NCBI GenBank assembly: GCA_029532415.1
Contig: JAQOTA010000020.1
Span: forward strand, 620,001 to 684,000
Direction of reading: 5' to 3'
DNA from: Marasmius tenuissimus
Taxonomy: Eukaryota; Basidiomycota; Agaricomycetes; Agaricales; Marasmiaceae
Length of the DNA: 64,000 nucleotides
Part shown: positions 47,845 to 62,868 of the stretch, piece by piece
Layout: each line of letters begins with the position of its first letter
Numbering within the stretch: position 1 is the stretch's first letter
Notes under the pieces: model-generated
What the model was told of the DNA's origin: nothing
Database searches by the model: none
The model's input: the letters and a program-made list of their open reading frames with translations, nothing else
Made by a program: the position numbers and the translations under genes

Positions 47845-49684
47845 ATGTCTCTCTCAGAATTGACCTCACTCCAACAGACTCTCAATGAAGCCATTGATGT
47901 ATACAAGTCTGAATTGGCGGCCCAGAATATTCCTGAGCCATCGCTCAACACATCGAAACCTCACCCTACAGACGACACTGCCTACCTTCCGACCCCGGCA
48001 ATGTTTGAAGCACGGAGGACGGCCCTGGCAAGTATGGTGAGCACACTTGTTCTTTTGAGAGTGAAGTTTAACTCACCGGGCTATCATCATCTGGGCAGGG
48101 TCTGATCAAGACGCTCGTTCAGAACCCCCACGACACTGTACTTGCAATGAGTTGGGCAAGTATGGAGGTGGCAAGCGTCCGTCTGGCTGCCGAGATCGGT
48201 TTGGCCAGTACATTGGGTGACTCAGAAGAAGGTTTGAACGTCCAAGAAATTGAGGACAAGACGGGTGTCGACGGCCTGAAGATTGGTGTGTTGGAAGTCA
48301 TCCATTATTGTGCAATTTCTGACTGTTCGTCCAGAACGTGTCTTAAGACTCCTCATCACCCAAGGATGGTTTCGAGAGACGAAACCGGGGTACTTTGCCA
48401 ACAACAGAACTAGTAATCTCATCAAGCGGGATCAACCAGGGCGTCACCTTTCAACCTGGATGTAAGCACAGTTCTATGCTCGTGTAGTTATCCGTCTCCC
48501 TAATTACCATTAGGAACGAGCGGTTCCATAAGACTTCCGTCAACTTACCCGAAATGCTCGCACATCCCGATCCTGCGTGGCGAAAGAGCGATAGCCCGTT
48601 GAAGACGGCATTCCAGTTATCCTACAAAACTGATCTGCCGGTCACTGGTAAGGTTAGTTGGCTCACAACATATCCAGAGGAAGCTACCGGCTTTGCGTTG
48701 GCGTGGGTATTGTCCCTTGTCGCTGAGTTCCAATGTGAGCTAACTTCGTACATACCAGAATGGGCGCTTTGGGTCCAACATTGGACCCCGGTGTTGTAGC
48801 CGACTTCTCCTGGGGGGAGATTGCGGAAGGAAAGGATGCCATCGTCGACGTCGGTGGCGGACAAGGAACCTTGAGTTGTTCATTGGCTGCCAAGTATCCC
48901 GAAATCAAGCAATTCATTGTTCAGGATCTCCCGGAGACTCAACCTGCCGCCGAAAGCTATATAGCTTCGAAAGGTCTTTCCGACAAGGTGATATTTGAGA
49001 CACAGAATTTCTTCGAGCCTCAAAAGCGCCGCGGAAAATACGTGTTTGTACTACAGCAAGGTGTGTAATCTTGTTTGATCGACGGCTGTAATCTTGCGCT
49101 GAGAGGGTTTGTAGTCCTAGATGACTGGAGTACTGAACAAGGGGCTGTTATATTGGGGCACATAAGAGATGTTTTGAACAAAGGGGTGCGTGATAGCACG
49201 GGTTGATTAAAACTCTTAAGTGGTGCTGATCAAGCCTTTCCAGAGTTCTATTCTCATCATCAACACTATTATCCAAGATGGAGTTTTCGCGAAATCTGGA
49301 CCATCGTTATCAGAGTCTCTTTCGTCCTGGACCGATAGGGCTCTATACACTCCTGTGTCGCCACCACCGCTGATACCATCGGATTTCGGGGAAGCGAGTA
49401 GGGTGCGACATCAACTCAATGTCGGCCTGACTGGGCTTTGTAATTGTGAGTGCTCGGTGTTCATGCGATGGGTTGCTGTGGGTGCTAATGCGAGGTAATA
49501 ATCTATATAGCCTTCGAGAGGACTCTCTCACAAATGAAGGAGATGGTGGAGTTGAGTGGGATGAAGATCAAGAGAGTGAACCCGACCAGGTGACTCGATG
49601 ACTCGACTTCGAGCACGTCCTGCGCTAATGCTGCTTCACGTTTGCAGGGGATGGGCATCAATCACAGAGGTCGTGTCTATATAG
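47845..49684 (+). CDS. SAM-dependent O-methyltransferase family protein
   Basis: Ten exons join in frame: 47845-48036, 48099-48285, 48335-48461, 48514-48647, 48678-48702, 48759-49060, 49115-49185, 49244-49445, 49511-49589 and 49648-49684, giving 451 residues, typical of fungal class II O-methyltransferases. A helical dimerisation region comes first, then a winged-helix part (GLKIERVLRLLITQGWF), then the SAM motif AIVDVGGGQGTLS and QFIVQDLPE. In this family the catalytic His lies in LHDW; here the site reads VLDDWSTEQ, so the His is Asp. It may be inactive or use different chemistry. It sits 1.9 kb from the UstYa gene and is a candidate tailoring enzyme of the peptide cluster. Confidence 0.85.
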
Positions 49685-50327: not shown

Positions 50328-51310
50328 CACGGCGGGATTTTTGATGTCCACGCGTGCTTTGTGTGGTGATGTCCAGTCAGTTGTCCAGTCGGTTGTCCAG
50401 TAGGATGTCCACTGCTTGTCAGTCACGATACAGTCACAGATGAGCTGTTAATAGGCAGGAAATTGTCACAGGTTTGACCTTTTTTGCCCAGCGAGCATGA
50501 TTAAACTGCCAAAGAGCGAAGCGCGAGCTACTTGTGCTCATACCAGATCCAAAGTCTTGGTGCTCGGTGCTTGGATCAGGCACACAGACACAGCCTACAA
50601 TGGGTAAGGACTTTGTGTCCCCTTATGTACTTTCAGAAGCCACCACGTTTATTGCACTGTTATACAGTTCTAATTTAGGGTTCAATAGTTTGTAGAGGCC
50701 ATGAAACATCGGGTCCAGGGAAGTGGAAAGAGCAGATGGGAAGATGTTATGCCAGAAAGACGCGAGGGTCTAAGTGTAAGGAAAGGGGCTGATAAACTAT
50801 AAAAGGATAATCACATCACGTGACCTTCCCGATATAGCTTATCGTCAATTCTCCATTTGCTTATCCGTACCATTGTGCTTCTTTGCGCTTCAAGTACTGA
50901 TCACCATACTGGGCAACTACAAATGGGTGTGCCGAAGGTACGGGAGGTCTTGTAGAAGGGCCAATGCTGCATGGTATTCAAAAGCCACGGTTCTGTCAAA
51001 GGTGGCCCTTGTCACTTCAAAGAGAAAGATAGGCTTCAGCCCCAGGGAGGTCCAGGCTTAGAAGGAAGGTGCAAGAACCATTGACCAGAGGCCAGACCCA
51101 GGGCTCGGGTACTGTAAGCCAGTCTTGCCGGGTGGTGATCCCTTTCATGAGAATAATTAAAGCCGGAATGCAGCAATACTTGTATGGATAAACAGTTTTT
51201 GTTTGATTTTGGTCACATCCTGTGAGTGGACATCCTATTGGACAACTGACTGGACAACTGACTGGACATCACCACACAAAGCACGAGTGGACATCAAAAA
51301 TCCCGCCGTG
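50328..51310. mobile_element. 983-bp TIR element with GTCCAGT repeats, CACxG ends
   Basis: The left end CACGGCGGGATTTTTGATGT is matched in reverse complement at the right end, and similarity covers about 85 bp, including GTGGTGATGTCCAGTCAGTT. Each arm holds three to four direct GTCCAGTYRGTT units. The trinucleotide tat flanks both sides. CAC-ends with a 3-bp duplication resemble CACTA-type elements. No coding gene is supported inside. It separates the methyltransferase and UstYa genes. Confidence 0.7.
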
Positions 51311-51585: not shown

Positions 51586-52618
51586 TCACGCCCCTGGTGG
51601 CTTCACAGTCGCATCAAACTCATTCAATGGGAGGTTGTTCTTCGGATCCTTCGCCCATTCATAGATTGTGTCGAAGTTTCTACACGTGTGAGGAGTTGCT
51701 GAGCGACCATAGGTCGAGTTTTGCTCGTAATTCCAGTGATAGATTATCAAGCTAACGTCTATATCCAGGCATCAACTTGGTTTAAGAATAATCAGGAATT
51801 GTCTTGAACTCACCCGACGAACACAGAATAGCCTGCCTCAGATGCTCGATGCAGTGTTGGACATGCCAATCTTCGACGGGAGGGTAATAGTCTGGTCGCA
51901 GACCCTTCCGAAGCATATTCTGCCAAGATAAAAATGTCGGACTCGATTAGCGTTGCCATGAATTTGAAGGGATATCTGCACCAACTGACCAAACAATGAA
52001 CCTGATGGAAAACATCCAACGCAACAATGTAGTTATCCGGATCGCTCGGAATTCTGATAGTCGGAACTGGAATCTGGTTAGCGTCAGATTCAGGAATCCT
52101 CGACAGTGCGACTTGTGAGCAGGACGACAGACAAATGGAACAAAGGTATAACTCGAGTCAACGACCACGCAATACAAAGTTCAGAGAGGCTTACTTACAT
52201 CGATACAGATCGTCCCAGCGTCTATCGAGCTCCGGGGAAGGTCCTCCTACGTATTCCGTCGTATCATTATTCATTCCGGCGCTAAAGGTGACGACCTGAT
52301 GTTCGATCAAATGATTGACTGGTGCTGGAGAAATGGGTGTTTTTCAGTCGAAGTTTTGTCCAAACGCTAGAGAGAATACTTGCAATAAAGCATCTGAGGC
52401 TCCGGATCCTTAGTATGGTCATGTTGGCTCCATCCCACGCCTCGGATCCAAAGCAGAAAAAAGACGATATTGGCGAGCCCAAGGAGGATTATCAGAATGA
52501 TTGATCGTCTTGAGGAAGGGCGGATTGGTAGCGCTGATTCGTTCGGCTGGGCCTCGTTATCGTCATCTTCGCCCTGGAGGAGTGGTTGGTACGCATGATC
52601 TTTCTCTTCATTATTCAT
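51586..52618 (-). CDS. UstYa/DUF3328 family oxidase
   Basis: Five exons join in frame: 52618-52384, 52324-52199, 52111-51990, 51919-51814 and 51758-51586, giving 253 residues. Intron 1 has a GC-AG pair (GCAAGT donor). A short acidic cytoplasmic N-terminus is followed by one membrane helix (IILIILLGLANIVFFLLWI). The lumenal domain has both hallmark motifs: HxxHC in DVFHQVHCL and HxxHC in WHVQHCIEHLRQA, and ends HTCRNFDTIYEWAKDPKNNL. In ascomycetes, members of this family carry out oxidative cyclisation or oxidation of ribosomal peptides (ustiloxin, phomopsin, asperipin). It is divergent from the repeat-peptide gene at 53183, sharing a 564-bp intergenic region, which supports a substrate relationship. 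Confidence 0.85.
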
Positions 52619-53182
52619 ACTGAGGGCTCGAGGGAACACAAGGGGAGAGTTATCAGCGGAATCGCATGATATGAGAGAAGCTAATAAGTCCAGTCTCTGA
52701 GTTCGTTTAGAGTAAGGTTGTCTCGGGCGAACAAGACGCCACGATCATGGCCTCCCGAAACACCACCTCCATGACCTGCTTCTCCCGTGTTATGAACTAC
52801 TCACTAGAACGCCTCAACACACCCGAACGTCAGAATTAGAGTCAGATGATGGTCGGGTAGCAGTCATCAGAGGGACCACCAGACCGCTGTCAAGTTAAAG
52901 ATGCGTCTATGACTCGTGATTCCCACCTACTAGTTCAGAATGTGGTAACTGAACGTGAGTACTGACCAGTCTGTGATGCGGGTAGGACGGGTAGGCTATG
53001 GATGTGGCGCCGCTCACCACTTCTGTACTCCTCATTTGCGATAGCAAAACTCACTCAGCGACCCCGTGTATCAGGGCAGTTTTTCTATCTCGCTTCTGGC
53101 GTCTTATCGCCTCACCACCACTCGCTTGGCTTTAAAATAAGAACGTATCACAATAGGCCTGTTGTATCCTGCACATTTTACC
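52619..53182. promoter_or_regulatory. Shared divergent promoter region (UstYa / peptide precursor)
   Basis: 564 bp between the minus-strand UstYa start and the plus-strand precursor start. A TTTAAAATAA element at 53131-53140 lies about 45 bp before the precursor ATG. No other motif identified. Confidence 0.4.
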
Positions 53183-53805
53183 ATGCGTAGTCTAATCGTT
53201 GTCGTCTACCTTTCCCTCATCGTCGCTGCTCTCCCCGGATCTGTGAGTCCTTCTCTGTAGAACCCCTCCTTGCAACTGAACTTCACGTTGAGATATAGGT
53301 TCGATTTAGCAGGGTAGGTGCCTCAAGATCTCCACCTCGATGATCACCATCTACTCAAATACTCCTCCATTCACTAGTCAAGCGAAGAATCCGACGTTGA
53401 CCTCCAATTCCCAAATTGGGACCGCAAGAGAGCACTGGTGAGTGAGCCCAGACACCTCGATTCTCTCATGCCTCATTGAAGAACGACTCTTGTTGACCAT
53501 ATCGTACACTTGTACTCTAGGCCACCGATGAATCTGACGTCGATCTTCAGTTCCCGAAATGGGACCGTAAGAGAGCTCCGGTGAGTTTTGTCCCCTGGAC
53601 ACAATGCTCTTCATCTGACCGAATGATATGCTCGTGATATAGACCACCGACGAGTCCGAAGTAGACCTACAGTTTCCCAAGTGGGATCGCCGTGCAGCGG
53701 CCCCGGTGGGTCTTTAAATCTTGGGCGACCATGTGCCCAACTTATCCATTACCGATGGCCATCTAGGAATCCGATGTTGATCTGCAATTCCCCAAGTGGG
53801 ACTGA
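53183..53805 (+). CDS. Secreted repeat-peptide precursor, candidate RiPP (dikaritin-like)
   Basis: Six small exons join in phase 0: 53183-53242 (signal peptide MRSLIVVVYLSLIVAALPGS), 53299-53313 (VRFSR), 53378-53437, 53521-53580, 53643-53705 and 53767-53805, giving 98 residues. Exons 3-6 each encode one copy of ESDVDLQFPKWD (variants: Asn for Lys in copy 1, Glu for Asp in copy 3). Copies 1 and 2 are followed by RKRA, copy 3 by RRAA, and copy 4 ends the protein. Lys-Arg and Arg-Arg are Kex2-type sites. Signal peptide plus repeated cores plus Kex2 sites beside a UstYa gene is the known dikaritin precursor layout. Alternatively a Kex2-processed secreted signalling peptide. Confidence 0.85.
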
Positions 53806-57125: not shown

Positions 57126-57991
57126 CGCTGGTGCGAACTAGATATCCGAAAGTGTTCGCATGTGAGTCAGTGGGACCAAGAAATTTGCACCCAATGGGTT
57201 ACCTAGAATCGAAATGGCCAGTAGACAGGATTGGTATTTACTCGGTGGTGGAGGTTGAAGAGCAGGCTCCTAGAACCAGCCTCCCGCGATGAGGCTAGCA
57301 ATATCAAGTGGTAATGAGGACGAGGAGTGGTTTTGACCGCAGTGTGTAATCAATATTATGTGGAAACATTTCTCAGCCAATCAGATCAGAACAAACTTGA
57401 GGAACGCCTCACCGTAGTTTGATAAAGCGAAAAATTTTTCAAAGCACTGGGCAGTACGATGGACCATCAGGAGTAGTTACTTATAACAATCATTCATCTC
57501 CATTATGTGTTGTAGATGGGTCCAAAGCGCCGACATCCCGACGACGAACAGTGTACGTTGCTCCTGTCTCCACTTTCGATTGCGCCTTCGCAACTCAACT
57601 GATGGTGCCACCCCAGCCAGACTCTTCGTGAGTCCAATTAGAGACCGTCTGGAAAGAGGTGTTGATTACAATCCAATGGTGCATCTCCGACGTTACCCAA
57701 TATATCCCAAAACCACGAGGCCTCTATGTTCACGTTTATGGCGCCCGATTCACTTCGTCATCCATGGAAGCACTATTTGGATGTTGCATCTCCTGAAATG
57801 AACTATCTTCCAACACGAAAAAAATAGAATCACAACACGATCTACGAGTCAGGGGAAGATGCGGCTCCCGGACGATCAGGTGCCACTCAAATCACTCCTC
57901 GAAGCTATGGCGTTTGACCGTTCAGACAACTCTTTTGTTTTTAAACTGGATAGCGGTGGTACGAGTTTCTATTTCTCATCACCCCACCATC
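57126..57991. other. Intergenic
   Basis: No supported gene. 5' flank of the GH10 gene. Confidence 0.35.
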
Positions 57992-59370
57992 ATGCGATTG
58001 CTATCAATCTTAGTGACCTCACTTCTTTGGCACCGTCCAGTCTCGAAAATCATCCTCAAGGACCTGGCAAAACCTCGATTCTTTGGAACGGCGGCAAACA
58101 CAAGCTACTTATTCCATGATCGAAACTATACACGAGTTGCAGCCACTCAGGTATGCTCGCCCAAACTTGAGGTTTTTCCGCTCGTTAACGCCGACGAAAG
58201 TTCTCGATTTTTACCCCAGAAGATGAAAGTAGGCGACTTACTGCATTCTACAAGTTCATTCACAGACGACGTTCCCGCTAAAGTGAAATGGGGCGAGATC
58301 GAACCTTTGCCGAACGTATTCAACTTCACGGCCGCAGATGAGATCGTCGAGTTCGCTGAAGGTCGTGAAGCAAAAATCAGAGGGCACAATTTCATGTGGT
58401 TCGTAGTCCCACATTCCTCTGGTCTTCATCACCGACCTGATGCTTGTTCAAAGGCATATTCACCTTGCACCTTGGGTTAACGATTCTTTGTCAGCGACTG
58501 AGCTGGACGCTGCGCTGGAAAACCATATTAGCAAGATTATGGATCATTATCGTGGAAGGCTCTACGCCTGGGATGTTATAGTAAAACTTATCTCTCTCTA
58601 CGCGGGGACGATTATTGAGACCGGGACCGTATGACGAAACAGAACGAAATCATCAGTGATACTCCCGCAAACGCTACCTTCAAGGACACAATTTGGACCA
58701 GAAAATTCGGAGGACTGGACGCAATGAAGAAAGCTCTCACTTATGCTCGGGAAGCAGATCCACAGCCGAAACTCTAGTGAGTGGCTTAATGCATACTTAC
58801 ATTTGGTTGTTATTCTTACGCTGTAAAGCTACAATGACTATGACATCGAAGGATTCAATGACAAGTCCAACGCTCTTTATGAGATCGTCAAGTCTCTTCA
58901 GAAGGACGGTTAGGTTACGTATTCTTAGAGGGTCTAACTAGTCCTCATACTTCCGGTAGGAATCCCCCTCGATGCTGTCGGTTTCCAAAGCCACTTCAAG
59001 CTCGGGCAAGTTCCACCCAATGTTCGGGAGAACCTTCAGCGATTCGCAGATCTCGACCTCGACGTTGCAATTACCGAGCTCGATGTTGACCTTGGTGGTC
59101 CAGCTAATGCTTCAGCTCTCGCTCAGCAAGCGAAAGATTATCATGAGATCGTTAGTGCGTGCCTTGCGGTGGAGCGGTGTGTTAGCGTGGTGAGTGTATT
59201 GATCTGTCCTGGGATCAGTCGTGAACTGACATTGAACATTATCCTAGACGGTTTGGGGTATTTCAGATGATCTTAGTTGGCTTCCTGGAAGTGGAGCTCT
59301 GCCTTGGGATGGAGAAAAGCAGGCCAAACCAGCGTTCTTTGCCATGGCAGACGCATTCAAGGGAGTTTGA
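57992..59370 (+). CDS. GH10 endo-1,4-beta-xylanase, secreted
   Basis: Six exons join in frame: 57992-58398, 58454-58580, 58643-58776, 58829-58908, 58960-59189 and 59248-59370, giving 366 residues. A short hydrophobic start (MRLLSILVTSLLW) may be the signal peptide. GH10 landmarks follow: RFFGTAANTSY, KVKWGEIEPLPNVFNFTAAD, IRGHNFMWHIHLAPWV, WDVINE (acid/base Glu), YNDYDIEG, VGFQSHFKLG, AITELDVD (nucleophile Glu) and VTVWGISDDLSWL. It would cleave xylan backbones outside the cell. Odd: the conserved NEMKW before the first landmark is AKVKW, and about 33 residues upstream (VCSPKLEVFP...) do not resemble the family. An unspliced or mis-modelled intron is possible. Confidence 0.8.
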
Positions 59371-59812
59371 TCTTCTGTTGCTTAGCTGGCCACTTGTCTG
59401 TCGCAACTTCTTGAGCGTTTCTCTATTCAGAATTGTTATTCGTGTACATCGCCTGAGGATATGGACAGTAAACGATGTTCGTACCTAACCTGATGTCTGG
59501 CGAAAAACGGCCTCCGGGCAATTTCTGGGTTTTCAAAAAAGCTGTGGGGCGTGGGATATTTACACTGGTACCGGATGGAAGGACCCAGGTCCCGTGACCG
59601 GAAGTCCCTGAAACCCTTGACCCGGACCACCACTATCGCAGCGAGAGATACTGAAGAATTCGGCGTCTTTCTTTCTATTTTCTGAGATAAGAGAAGGAGA
59701 AGCAGAGTAAAAGCGCACCTGTACACTCCAAGAATCGATTCTTTAGGTTTGTTCTCCCTTGCTCCCGCTCTTAGTGACTAAAACGCCCGTAACAGCCTCG
59801 CGAAAAGGAGAA
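59371..59812. other. Intergenic
   Basis: 3' flank of the xylanase gene and 5' flank of the F-box gene. Nothing else seen. Confidence 0.4.
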
Positions 59813-61510
59813 ATGACGTTGGACCTTCCAATAACGTCGTCCATGGCCCCGATTTCGGACTTGGAATTGGTCGAACAATTGACCAGTTCTTACTCAATGC
59901 CGTCCTTACACTCCAATCAAGCCGATATTCGCCAGTTTCTCACTGAGATCGAGCTGGACCTTTCGGCTTACGATGACAAGATAGCTGATCTCGAGGGTCA
60001 ACTGATAGCTTTGAGGGAGAGCAGGAATGCTCTCCGACAGAGAAAGTCCCGTTTTTCGTCACTTTTAGCTCCCATTCGCCGCCTACAATCGGAACTCTTA
60101 CAGGAAATCTTTATATATACCGTTGCCGGGTCAGGACAAGATAGCGGGAACACCTTTGGCATCTACTCAATATGGAGATCGAGCACATTGTTTCTCAGCT
60201 TTGTTTGTAGCCGGTGGAGGAATATCGTCTTAGACACGCCCGCACTATGGTCCGCTTTTGGCTTTGAGATCAGTACCAGGGCTGGCGTCCCTGTTGAACT
60301 CTTTCTCACGCGGTCAAGAGGCAGGCCACTCTCTGTAGAGATCACTTCAGGCTCAGACCATTCAGCCATGGAGACCTTGAGGAGCCTTCTTGATGATTCT
60401 GGGAGAATCGCATGGCTGGACTATCATAACGTATCTCAAGTGGATTACCTCCGTATGCTCGAAAGAGTTTTGTGCTTTCCAACACTCAAGGATACTGTAT
60501 TCCGTACTCGACTTTTCCGCGACTCCCCTACGGCATTCAGTGACTCAGTGCCACTACTGGATACTTTAGTGTGTCGTTACGAGAAGACACGGCGACTACC
60601 CATTCCTTCTCTCCCACTCAACCGAATCAGGAGCCTTGTGTTCCAATGGGGCTGTAGCGGTTCCTTGAGCAACATGTTCGACATGCTTCGGGATCCAGAC
60701 TTGCGAACCACCCTTCAGTCCCTTGCATTCGAGTCTCTCCCAGACCACACGAGGTTGGGTTACGTTTCCCAGAGCGATCATTCCGGTTGGCGGGAATTGG
60801 AGGATAGCCCCGCCGAGCTGCCGAACCTCGAGGAATTGACATTAGTCCTTTACCACCACTCCGGAGTCTATCCGCATATTGATGATATCGTCAGCAATCT
60901 TACCCTCCCTTCCCTCACCAAGTTGTACCTAATAGGCGATTGCGACTGGGATGGAGCGTTCGATAGGGAGTGGCCCAGAGCCTCCGTCGACTCATTCCTC
61001 TCTCGTTCTCGGAGCGCAGGGGTGTTAGCCAGTGTCGTATTCGATGGTCTTCCAATCACGGACGTGATCGTAATAGCTTTCCTGCAACACACACCATCCC
61101 TCGAATTTCTCACGCTAAACGAGCTATTTGCCAAAAACTACTACCGCGATCATCTAAACGGGGAAGAGCTGGGATTAGGGCAGGCCGTTGAGAGTGTTTC
61201 AAGGTTGTTCGTTGACACATTGAACACTCGGTTCTATCCATCCCGATCACCGTTTCTTCCGAAAGTGCGATCTCTTTGTTTTAGAGTACATAAACATTTT
61301 GACGCGGACGCCGAATTTGTGGATATGGTGAAGTCGAGGTGGTATCCTCCTCGAGCTGAACGCGGGAGCTTAGCACATGCCACGCTCAGGGAGGTCACTC
61401 TGGCGGTACTTAACCGAAATCTGGACGAAGAGCTTTATGAGCCGCTGAAGTTGTTGGAAGAGGAAGGACTTAGGGTAGTGGTTGCGGGAAACGGTCAGAT
61501 TGTCGTTTGA
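59813..61510 (+). CDS. F-box/LRR-like protein
   Basis: Single exon of 565 residues from the first ATG (MTLDLPITSSMAP). A predicted coiled coil (ELDLSAYDDKIADLEGQLIA and following) precedes the F-box-like segment PIRRLQSELLQEIFIYTVAG, then the familiar SFVCSRWRNIVLDTPALWSAF. Leucine-rich stretches follow (LPNLEELTLVLYHH, LPSLTKLYLIGDCDW, HTPSLEFLTLNELF). This is the common Agaricomycete F-box architecture, expected to recruit substrates to an SCF ubiquitin ligase. Substrate unknown. A paralogue is dead at 54371-57125. Confidence 0.85.
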   Translation: MTLDLPITSSMAPISDLELVEQLTSSYSMPSLHSNQADIRQFLTEIELDLSAYDDKIADLEGQLIALRESRNALRQRKSRFSSLLAPIRRLQSELLQEIFIYTVAGSGQDSGNTFGIYSIWRSSTLFLSFVCSRWRNIVLDTPALWSAFGFEISTRAGVPVELFLTRSRGRPLSVEITSGSDHSAMETLRSLLDDSGRIAWLDYHNVSQVDYLRMLERVLCFPTLKDTVFRTRLFRDSPTAFSDSVPLLDTLVCRYEKTRRLPIPSLPLNRIRSLVFQWGCSGSLSNMFDMLRDPDLRTTLQSLAFESLPDHTRLGYVSQSDHSGWRELEDSPAELPNLEELTLVLYHHSGVYPHIDDIVSNLTLPSLTKLYLIGDCDWDGAFDREWPRASVDSFLSRSRSAGVLASVVFDGLPITDVIVIAFLQHTPSLEFLTLNELFAKNYYRDHLNGEELGLGQAVESVSRLFVDTLNTRFYPSRSPFLPKVRSLCFRVHKHFDADAEFVDMVKSRWYPPRAERGSLAHATLREVTLAVLNRNLDEELYEPLKLLEEEGLRVVVAGNGQIVV

Positions 61511-62408
61511 TGGGTTTATGAATACAAGGTCTAATAGATTCTTGGTGTTTACGAGTTTATCCAAATGCTTACGTTCGGAGTGGAGTTAGATGAAACAGGC
61601 TTCTTTTTTTCGAACACGAGAATCCCTCATTCTCATTCCTGAACATCCCAAAAAGTTTCTCCGAGCTTCGGCGTCCCTCGATCTCTCTGATTGTGTGGGC
61701 GAATCGTCCAATGGGGAGGTACTCTCCAAGTGTGTTCATGATGCTACCATTCTCAATGCCTGAAGCATGAGAGTGGGATACATTATGGTTATTGGAGTCC
61801 TCTGCGTCACTTCTGAGGTTTTTTCAATGAGGCTGATGAATGAATCTTCCCGCTGTCTACAGTATGTGGCCGAAGTCAGATTTCTTGGCAAGGGAAGAAG
61901 CAGCTATCGACGTACTTCAAGCGGCTTACTGAGTGCTCCAAGGGCAAAGGCCAAGGCTTTCACATAATACTACAGGCGCAAGAATTTCTCAGACACGCGT
62001 TCTGGCTCACCAATACCACCATCGAACGATTTTACAAAGGTCGCCCACCTCACAAAGGCAAATGCCGCCCCATCAGGAAACTATTAGGCCAACGAGACAG
62101 CCCAAATGGAAGCTGTCAAACGCCGAGATAAGAATCAAACATTCACTCGGCGCGTTTTGATGCATCTTTTATATTGAATTCAATCGACTCATGTTTTCTC
62201 ATGTCACTCTCGTACTCCACTCCGATGTGATTTGTTTCTTTACAAATTTGTCCAGTTCAAGGAGGAACAAGGGGTGGCTGTAGAACAGTCAACAAAAATC
62301 GCGTCACTCGCCTATCCAAAAACTTATAAAAGGCGGCCAGAAATCAGCATTGTTTCCTCACTCGAACACACCAGCAGTCGTCTGTTCAAGCATCCTCTTA
62401 CCACTATC
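61511..62408. other. Intergenic, hydrophobin promoter
   Basis: No supported gene. Peptide-like frames at 61767-62160 change frame repeatedly and may be a relic. TATAAAA at 62325-62331 is 84 bp ahead of the hydrophobin ATG. Confidence 0.4.
62325..62331 (+). promoter_or_regulatory. TATA box of the hydrophobin gene
   Basis: TATAAAA in context AACTTATAAAAGGCGG. Confidence 0.65.
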
Positions 62409-62868
62409 ATGAAGTTCAGCCAGCTTTTCACCGTCTCTGCCCTCGCTACCCTTGCGGTCGCCACACCCACTGGAGGCTCCGGTGGTGGATCCGGCGGAAA
62501 CTGCAACACTGGCCCTATCCAGTGCTGCAATAGCGTCACTAAGGCCAACGACCCCGCCGCTGCTGGCGTCCTCGGCCTCCTCGGTATCGTCCTCCAGGAC
62601 TTGAACGTTTTGGTCGGTTTGTCATGCAGCCCCATCACTGTCATTGGCGGTGGAAACGGTGGATGGTAAGTTTGATTTTGTTTCTCGCTGACTTCGAGCG
62701 GTTTTACTGAGATGCGAACTATAGCAATGCCAGCCCTGTCTGCTGCGAGAACAACTCCCATGGTATTTACCCTCTTGTGATCCCCCTGTTCGATTTTCCA
62801 AGTCGCTAACCCATGTTTCCTCTTTAGGTGGCCTCATCTCCATCGGCTGCATCCCCATCAGCCTCTAA
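62409..62868 (+). CDS. Class I hydrophobin
   Basis: Three exons join in frame: 62409-62665, 62725-62762 and 62828-62868, giving 111 residues. The signal peptide [20 protein letters not shown] is followed by a Gly/Ser-rich linker. All eight cysteines are present in the hydrophobin pattern [35 protein letters not shown] and IGCIPI. Long spacing between the first CC and the next C fits class I. Such proteins self-assemble into amphipathic layers on hyphae and fruiting bodies. Confidence 0.95.

Follow-up and report, generated by a model that had tools for sequence, protein, structure and literature searches.

Head-to-head pairs of a UstYa/DUF3328 gene and a repeat-peptide precursor gene in Marasmius tenuissimus: a candidate fungal RiPP module

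We analysed a stretch of 64,000 nucleotides (hereafter the window, with positions counted from its first letter) from the genome of Marasmius tenuissimus, a basidiomycete of the order Agaricales that is listed among the agents of cacao thread blight (PMC8581569). The window lies on contig C11 (JAQOTA010000020.1, 620,001 to 684,000). Two divergent genes, one for a repeat-peptide precursor of the KEP type and one for a UstYa/DUF3328 enzyme, make up the locus:

51586..52618, minus strand: UstYa/DUF3328 gene, 253 aa (gene model and Pfam match)
52384-52618, 52199-52324, 51990-52111, 51814-51919, 51586-51758, minus strand: the five UstYa exons (gene model)
52619..53182, no strand: divergent intergenic region, 564 bp between the start codons of the two gene models
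53183..53805, plus strand: precursor (KEP) gene; open spliced frame, all exons in phase 0, GT-AG introns, homologue in Marasmius sp. AFHP31
53183-53242, 53299-53313, 53378-53437, 53521-53580, 53643-53705, 53767-53805, plus strand: the six precursor exons (spliced model)
53183..53242, plus strand: exon 1, signal peptide MRSLIVVVYLSLIVAALPGS (13-residue mean hydropathy 2.98; judged by hydropathy only)
53299..53313, plus strand: 15-nt microexon VRFSR; frame kept, identical five residues in the AFHP31 homologue P0001
53387..53422, plus strand: core 1, ESDVDLQFPNWD, then RKR (53423-53431)
53530..53565, plus strand: core 2, ESDVDLQFPKWD, then RKR (53566-53574)
53652..53687, plus strand: core 3, ESEVDLQFPKWD, then RR (53688-53693)
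53767..53802, plus strand: core 4, ESDVDLQFPKWD, with the stop codon directly after

The predicted precursor has 98 residues with the microexon and 93 without VRFSR, and its five introns, all GT-AG, measure 56–83 nt. The longer model is supported because VRFSR sits at the same place in the AFHP31 homologue (P0001, PQX77_020548; both proteins are predicted), which shares 83% identity with the precursor at 100% query coverage. Each core-bearing exon carries one core; these exons encode 20, 20, 21 and 12 residues (SSEESDVDLQFPNWDRKRAL, ATDESDVDLQFPKWDRKRAP, TTDESEVDLQFPKWDRRAAAP and ESDVDLQFPKWD, respectively), and the DNA contains four 43-nt copies at spacings of 143, 122 and 115. With a signal peptide, recognised by hydropathy only, and repeats with dibasic sites between them, the precursor is of the KEP type. 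Trp is kept in all four core copies, and Tyr is absent from all of them. The residues following the basic sites (KR-AL, KR-AP and RR-AAAP) give a weak X-A/X-P (Ste13) signal. The computed m/z values of the [M+2H]2+ ions, for the linear peptide and for a form lacking 2 H (2.016 Da lighter), are 905.4125 and 904.4047 for TTDESEVDLQFPKWD, 883.3994 and 882.3916 for ATDESDVDLQFPKWD, and 739.8435 and 738.8357 for ESDVDLQFPKWD.

The enzyme matched the Pfam UstYa profile (PF11807) with 171.4 bits against a cut-off of 25. Both metal-binding-type motifs are intact (HQVHC at residue 156 and HVQHC at 180), and hydropathy indicates a single N-terminal hydrophobic stretch at residues 40–58. Its first intron is of the GC-AG type (donor TATT/GCAAGT), with GT at the same place in four other UstYa loci of the genome (L015, L016, L024 and L025). 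Both reading frames of the pair are intact. The public model of the enzyme (P0002, PM082_009715) comprises 143 aa and misses part of exon 3 as well as the membrane stretch, and the precursor had no public M. tenuissimus counterpart among the matches of our protein and profile searches; the microexon and the GC-AG intron could account for this poor annotation. The initial annotation had given the coordinates, strands and divergent layout of the two genes (53183-53805 on the plus strand, 51586-52618 on the minus strand), a secreted precursor of 98 residues and a UstYa/DUF3328 gene with both HxxHC motifs, and our models bear it out on these points. Its "four near-identical cores" stand as four cores with RKR, RKR and RR sites, corrected to two identical ones (ESDVDLQFPKWD) and two, ESDVDLQFPNWD and ESEVDLQFPKWD, that differ by one residue.

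Related systems include the DUF3328 enzymes of cyclochlorotine biosynthesis. CctR is a binuclear copper enzyme with the HxxHC double motif as its metal site, and it is located in Golgi, endosome and vacuole membranes; its copper site has been compared with that of plant BURP cyclases (PMC12435403). CctR and the other cyclochlorotine enzymes have the same membrane helix and HxxHC(x)nHxxHC arrangement as the window enzyme, but CctR hydroxylates a non-ribosomal peptide, whereas the putative substrate of the window enzyme is a ribosomal precursor. For P0003, a relative from M. oreades, an AlphaFold2 model built from 8 sequences is of low confidence (mean pLDDT 55.8) and would place each HxxHC motif in its own helix. 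A search for solved structures related by sequence gave no convincing hit, the single match having an E value of 0.97.

The pairing is not confined to the window. When the joined window cores were used to query the 71-Mb genome, they identified a second site (C11:774.4-774.9 kb; E 0.004 and 0.46), and a further UstYa gene lies 3 kb from it. The PF11807 profile gave 26 exon matches in the genome, which we read as 13 loci, and each of the 12 loci other than the window (L015–L026) was taken as a 10-kb piece. Eight loci (window, L015, L016, L018, L019, L021, L024 and L025) form class 1, in which an intron separates the motifs and the second motif resembles HVQHCIEHLRQ; the other five (L017, L020, L022, L023 and L026, with L023 assigned by its first motif only) form class 2, with HxxHCLxYLRQ. 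Repeat-peptide arrays were present at five class 1 loci:

Window: the precursor described above
L016:7372-8975: precursor with 22 copies of VDARFSPWGKR, with one residue change among the copies (array scan)
L018:4000-9700: one precursor facing two consecutive UstYa genes head to head; 14 listed cores of the type VDxxNxxWxI
L021:6465-8425: one UstYa gene and two tandem precursors, a more divergent first one and a second that carries DVDNANKINRWA cores
L024: precursor with 3 cores DxAFPYWDRK, head to head with UstYa

Arrays occurred at 5/8 class 1 loci and in 0/22 control pieces; with the window locus left out, the proportion was 4/7 (p 0.0015). The contrast between the classes alone (5/8 vs 0/5) gave p 0.075. 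The controls comprised the 5 class 2 loci, 8 random pieces shortened to 5 kb (from eight contigs, 40 places having been drawn), 6 other pieces of the window (four of 10 kb and two of 6 kb) and 3 flanks. The cut-off of at least 13 clusters was fixed after the output had been seen; the five arrays gave 48, 926, 192, 66 and 13 clusters, the other class 1 loci 2, 8 and 2, and no control exceeded 7. On the top score taken by itself, L024 (19) equals one window piece (19) and barely exceeds another (18). No repeat array was found in the 10-kb pieces of L015, L019 and L025.

By the chosen starts, all five pairs are head to head, with gaps of 564, 1336, 1079, 1012 and 785 bp. Four of the five families have cores that fit the pattern [V/A]D-x-x-[F/N]-x-x-W, with L021 as the exception: in its second precursor Tyr replaces Trp in 1/4 cores, and the core spacing is longer. 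The Trp is kept in all 22 copies of L016, whose precursor carries X-A dipeptides (DA, EA, SA, GA, AA) after most KR sites, an alpha-factor-like layout. Among the 14 listed cores of L018, V stands first in 12 (one K, one L) and D follows in 13 (one N), and single-Arg cleavage sites are commoner than dibasic ones. A DNA pattern for D-V-D-x-x-F-x-x-W-(G/D/E) matched 13 times in 71 Mb, 12 of these in two UstYa-linked precursors, compared with 1 match for the reversed-pattern control. Each of the five core queries matched only UstYa-linked sites, among the matches listed. A shared promoter motif was considered and dropped, as the five intergenic regions have one 7-mer in common (null mean 0.24, maximum 1) and no 8-mer. 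The pairing of a KEP precursor with DUF3328 in a basidiomycete, as first annotated, thus holds at the window and recurs at four other places in the genome.

We then compared the core copies within precursors. Summed over six pairs, the 12-codon window cores differ at 40 synonymous positions over 39 sites and 6 non-synonymous positions over 177 sites (pS 1.03, pN 0.034), and such mostly synonymous differences rule out chance repeats as the origin of the cores. The frame-shift control covers a shift by one base (pS 0, pN 0.25; three rows without a stop), a two-base shift being interrupted by stops. Consistently, the 22 cores of L016 gave pS 0.82 and pN 0.013; these copies were chosen by a pattern that fixes most residues, and a looser scan returned the same 22 and no more divergent copy. 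Judged from these counts, the cores of both precursors are under strong purifying selection at the peptide level.

Among 12 candidates, the protein search with the precursor matched only PQX77_020548, and a profile search with four precursors retrieved 2 of 1086 candidates, PQX77_020548 and the public model for the precursor at L024, P0010. Matches of P0001 to the NCBIfam profiles BrnA (18.3 bits of 60, E 0.002), AmcA (12.4 of 40) and HdrA (9.5 of 300) were taken as chance. All four cores of PQX77_020548 read FPDWD, compared with FPKWD or FPNWD in the window, so the residue before Trp changes in concert across the cores. None of the 8 protein matches to UstYa (7 named, 1 unnamed) was named as Marasmius sp. 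AFHP31, so that conserved adjacency of the pair in a second species is conjectural. In a UstYa tree of 15 rows, the window enzyme forms a clade supported at 100/100 with L015 and L024, the latter 76% identical to it. M. oreades P0003 is the partner of L016 (92/93), and both L018 enzymes stand apart with L019 and P0009; with 3 of the 12 inner branches starred, the finer order is tentative. The L024 cores (FPYWDRK) are also the most similar to those of the window, with a weak cross-match (E 0.03 and 0.07). The nearest relative of the window enzyme in the tree thus stands opposite the precursor whose core is most like that of the window, and enzyme relatedness apparently fits core type. As for L015, its 10-kb piece either lost a repeat precursor or never contained one.

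The window holds one UstYa gene, and C11 carries five within ~192 kb (591-783 kb; the window spans 620-684 kb), a local hot spot. At 50328-51310 lies a 983-bp element with 86-nt inverted terminal repeats (97% complementary), which ends ~275 bp from the UstYa stop codon. The best 40 of 81 genome matches of its arms, its own two included, are at 93–100%, and several are paired ~900 bp apart; the element is a member of a MITE-like family. An exon of a Methyltransf_2 O-methyltransferase (48739-49065) lies ~2.5 kb from the UstYa gene. PF00891 has 25 genome matches, none on C7, C23 or C32 nor elsewhere on C11, and a wider cluster with a conserved O-methyltransferase was dropped because no PF00891 match lies near the other four pairs. 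Among 20 of the 32 listed open segments of at least 100 aa right of 42 kb, Pfam identified this exon, GH10 and a hydrophobin. The GH10 xylanase exons and the hydrophobin (57797-62666) are ordinary neighbours, and a 587-residue open frame between them (59747-61507, plus strand) has no Pfam match. The genome contains two matches to the Kex2-type P-domain (P_proprotein). It also contains 24 matches to tyrosinase (PF00264), none on C11, C7, C23 or C32, the contigs of all five pairs; tyrosinase-assisted chemistry was dropped on this ground.

Dikaritins (ustiloxin, phomopsin, asperipin-2a and victorin, all of Ascomycota) derive from the same kind of secreted precursor, which has several cores and Kex2 sites and is encoded next to a DUF3328 gene with the double HxxHC motif. 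Asperipin is not known to require a tyrosinase, and the victorin locus includes a DUF3328 gene. The window shows the dikaritin layout in that a KEP-type precursor adjoins a DUF3328 gene with 564 bp between divergent starts. It differs in being basidiomycete, in having one UstYa gene and no tyrosinase match on its contig, in a Tyr-free core built on D-x-x-F-x-x-W, and in a recurring unit of two head-to-head genes; the older five-gene definition of dikaritins includes a tyrosinase and also looks to a transporter, peptidase or methyltransferase. The cores of ustiloxin, phomopsin and asperipin have Tyr, unlike those of the window, L024 has FPYW, and victorin closes its ring through Phe (review PMC9233826).

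The initial annotation treated this layout as known from ascomycetes only, which published surveys contradict. For Basidiomycota, Umemura 2020 gives 103 of 1680 KEPs as having a DUF3328 gene within 15 genes (PMC7329392); another paper puts the UstYa-like genes of Pleurotus at 16 (PMC8893723). The absence of Tyr from the window cores was correct but is not without precedent, given the Phe-closed ring of victorin and the KEP type P-3, which is common to both phyla, stands partly beside DUF3328 genes and combines W with P (PMC7329392). The general pairing and a Trp core beside DUF3328 are thus shared with Umemura 2020, whose main-text passages do not describe head-to-head pairs or five families in one genome and whose main text does not contain "Marasmi". 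Our searches of the open-licence literature turned up no account of this locus, none of a UstYa-made Trp cross-link and none joining Marasmius and UstYa.

Collectively, these data lead us to read the locus as a two-gene fungal RiPP module in which UstYa oxidises and probably cross-links the core, possibly through Trp, a reading to which we give a probability of about 0.5. The multi-core precursor enters the secretory pathway, as its signal peptide indicates. Kex2 would cut after RKR or RR and Kex1 would trim the basic residues, consistent with the P-domain matches in the genome, probably yielding acidic 12–17-mers that end in FPKWD or FPNWD. By analogy with CctR, a Kex2-cut precursor on its way through the Golgi would be a natural substrate of the neighbouring DUF3328 enzyme. 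Family knowledge suggests that the head-to-head UstYa, a single-pass membrane protein with a putative two-copper HxxHC...HxxHC site and O2 as oxidant, oxidises the core. The least certain step is that this oxidation may be a side-chain cross-link closing a ring inside D-x-x-F-x-x-W. The invariant Trp would be its most plausible partner, because the core lacks Tyr and no tyrosinase is nearby. The four further enzyme-precursor pairs would make related peptides. Several observations speak against this reading: the linear Trp-ending KEP peptides of other Agaricomycetes described below, the Tyr that replaces Trp in one L021 core, the three class 1 loci lacking an array (L015 of the window enzyme's own clade among them), the lack of an 8-mer common to the five intergenic regions and the low confidence of the structure model.

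Other readings of the pair have to be weighed. The peptides may be linear signals from an alpha-pheromone-like KEP cut by Kex2 and Kex1 (and Ste13 in L016), with UstYa acting elsewhere or not at all. Such repeat precursors in Basidiomycota were described by Le Marquer 2019, and the alpha-pheromone-like KEPs that this study and Vogt 2022 treat in Agaricomycetes have the same signal peptide, Trp repeats and dibasic sites; they also share Ste13-type spacers with L016, where these are frequent (KR-DA/EA/SA). The products reported by Vogt 2022 are linear, and the words UstYa and DUF3328 are absent from its text (PMC9769878): KEP peptides with Ste13 motifs or a C-terminal Trp were detected in linear form in Coprinopsis, Lentinula and Pleurotus, with SGTGEASAADW, MSGVAADW and GPPAPSW confirmed in tissue or supernatant. 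The core cross-link as initially annotated is therefore not supported as it stood. Nor is a conserved Trp alone a sign of cross-linking, because W is not enriched in KEPs beside DUF3328 genes (20.5% compared with 24.5%; PMC7329392). However, cross-linked forms could have been missed, as the detections relied on Mascot searches against KEP sequences and the detection sections mention no cross-link modification (PMC9769878). Moreover, 17 of 76 KEPs resembling basidiomycete pheromone candidates have DUF3328 neighbours (PMC7329392, same passages), all repeat precursors that we found are head to head with UstYa, and the matches listed for the core queries are UstYa-linked only. We consider purely linear signals rather unlikely, though a serious contender.

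A core that is tailored but ringless is improbable in our judgement: here UstYa would hydroxylate, desaturate or halogenate residues such as Asp, Leu, Pro or Trp and leave the peptide linear. DUF3328 members indeed carry out hydroxylation and halogenation besides macrocyclisation (passages of PMC12435403), and the window holds a single UstYa gene on a contig free of tyrosinase matches, whereas cyclisation of ustiloxin and phomopsin requires a tyrosinase (PMC7329392). Against this, DUF3328 enzymes are tied to ring closure in the KEP-derived ustiloxins, phomopsins and asperipin (passages of PMC9233826 and PMC7329392). A silent or decaying locus, unexpressed and with its layout inherited by duplication, would fit the short public UstYa model, the lack of a public M. 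tenuissimus precursor among the matches and the repeat element near the UstYa stop codon; both frames are intact, though, the cores are under strong purifying selection and the microexon and GC-AG intron could explain the annotation, which make it very improbable. We put ring closure of the core at about an even chance and Trp as the linked residue lower, because linear KEP peptides keep Trp and W is not enriched. As a wider proposal, a basidiomycete RiPP class in which UstYa without tyrosinase closes a [V/A]D-x-x-[F/N]-x-x-W ring through the invariant Trp, with at least five pairs diversified within a single mushroom genome, is possible but doubtful.

Already known are KEPs with DUF3328 in Basidiomycota, a Trp core beside DUF3328 and UstYa families in mushrooms, according to the passages cited above. 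Apparently new, within the literature consulted, are the locus itself, the head-to-head two-gene unit, the presence in a single genome of five parallel families whose core pattern is largely shared, and the fit between enzyme relatedness and core type, although some of the precursors may stand in published supplementary tables. Umemura 2020 raised the question whether KEPs of Basidiomycota are scarcely ever cyclised or rely on a different motif for it (PMC7329392). Five head-to-head pairs, with four core families sharing the Asp/Trp pattern, make this question directly testable. If the peptides are cross-linked, Trp-based side-chain closure by a copper enzyme would be added to fungal RiPP chemistry. 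Together with the four other pairs, the locus looks like part of a family of mushroom peptides that are modified by enzymes and akin to fungal toxins already described.
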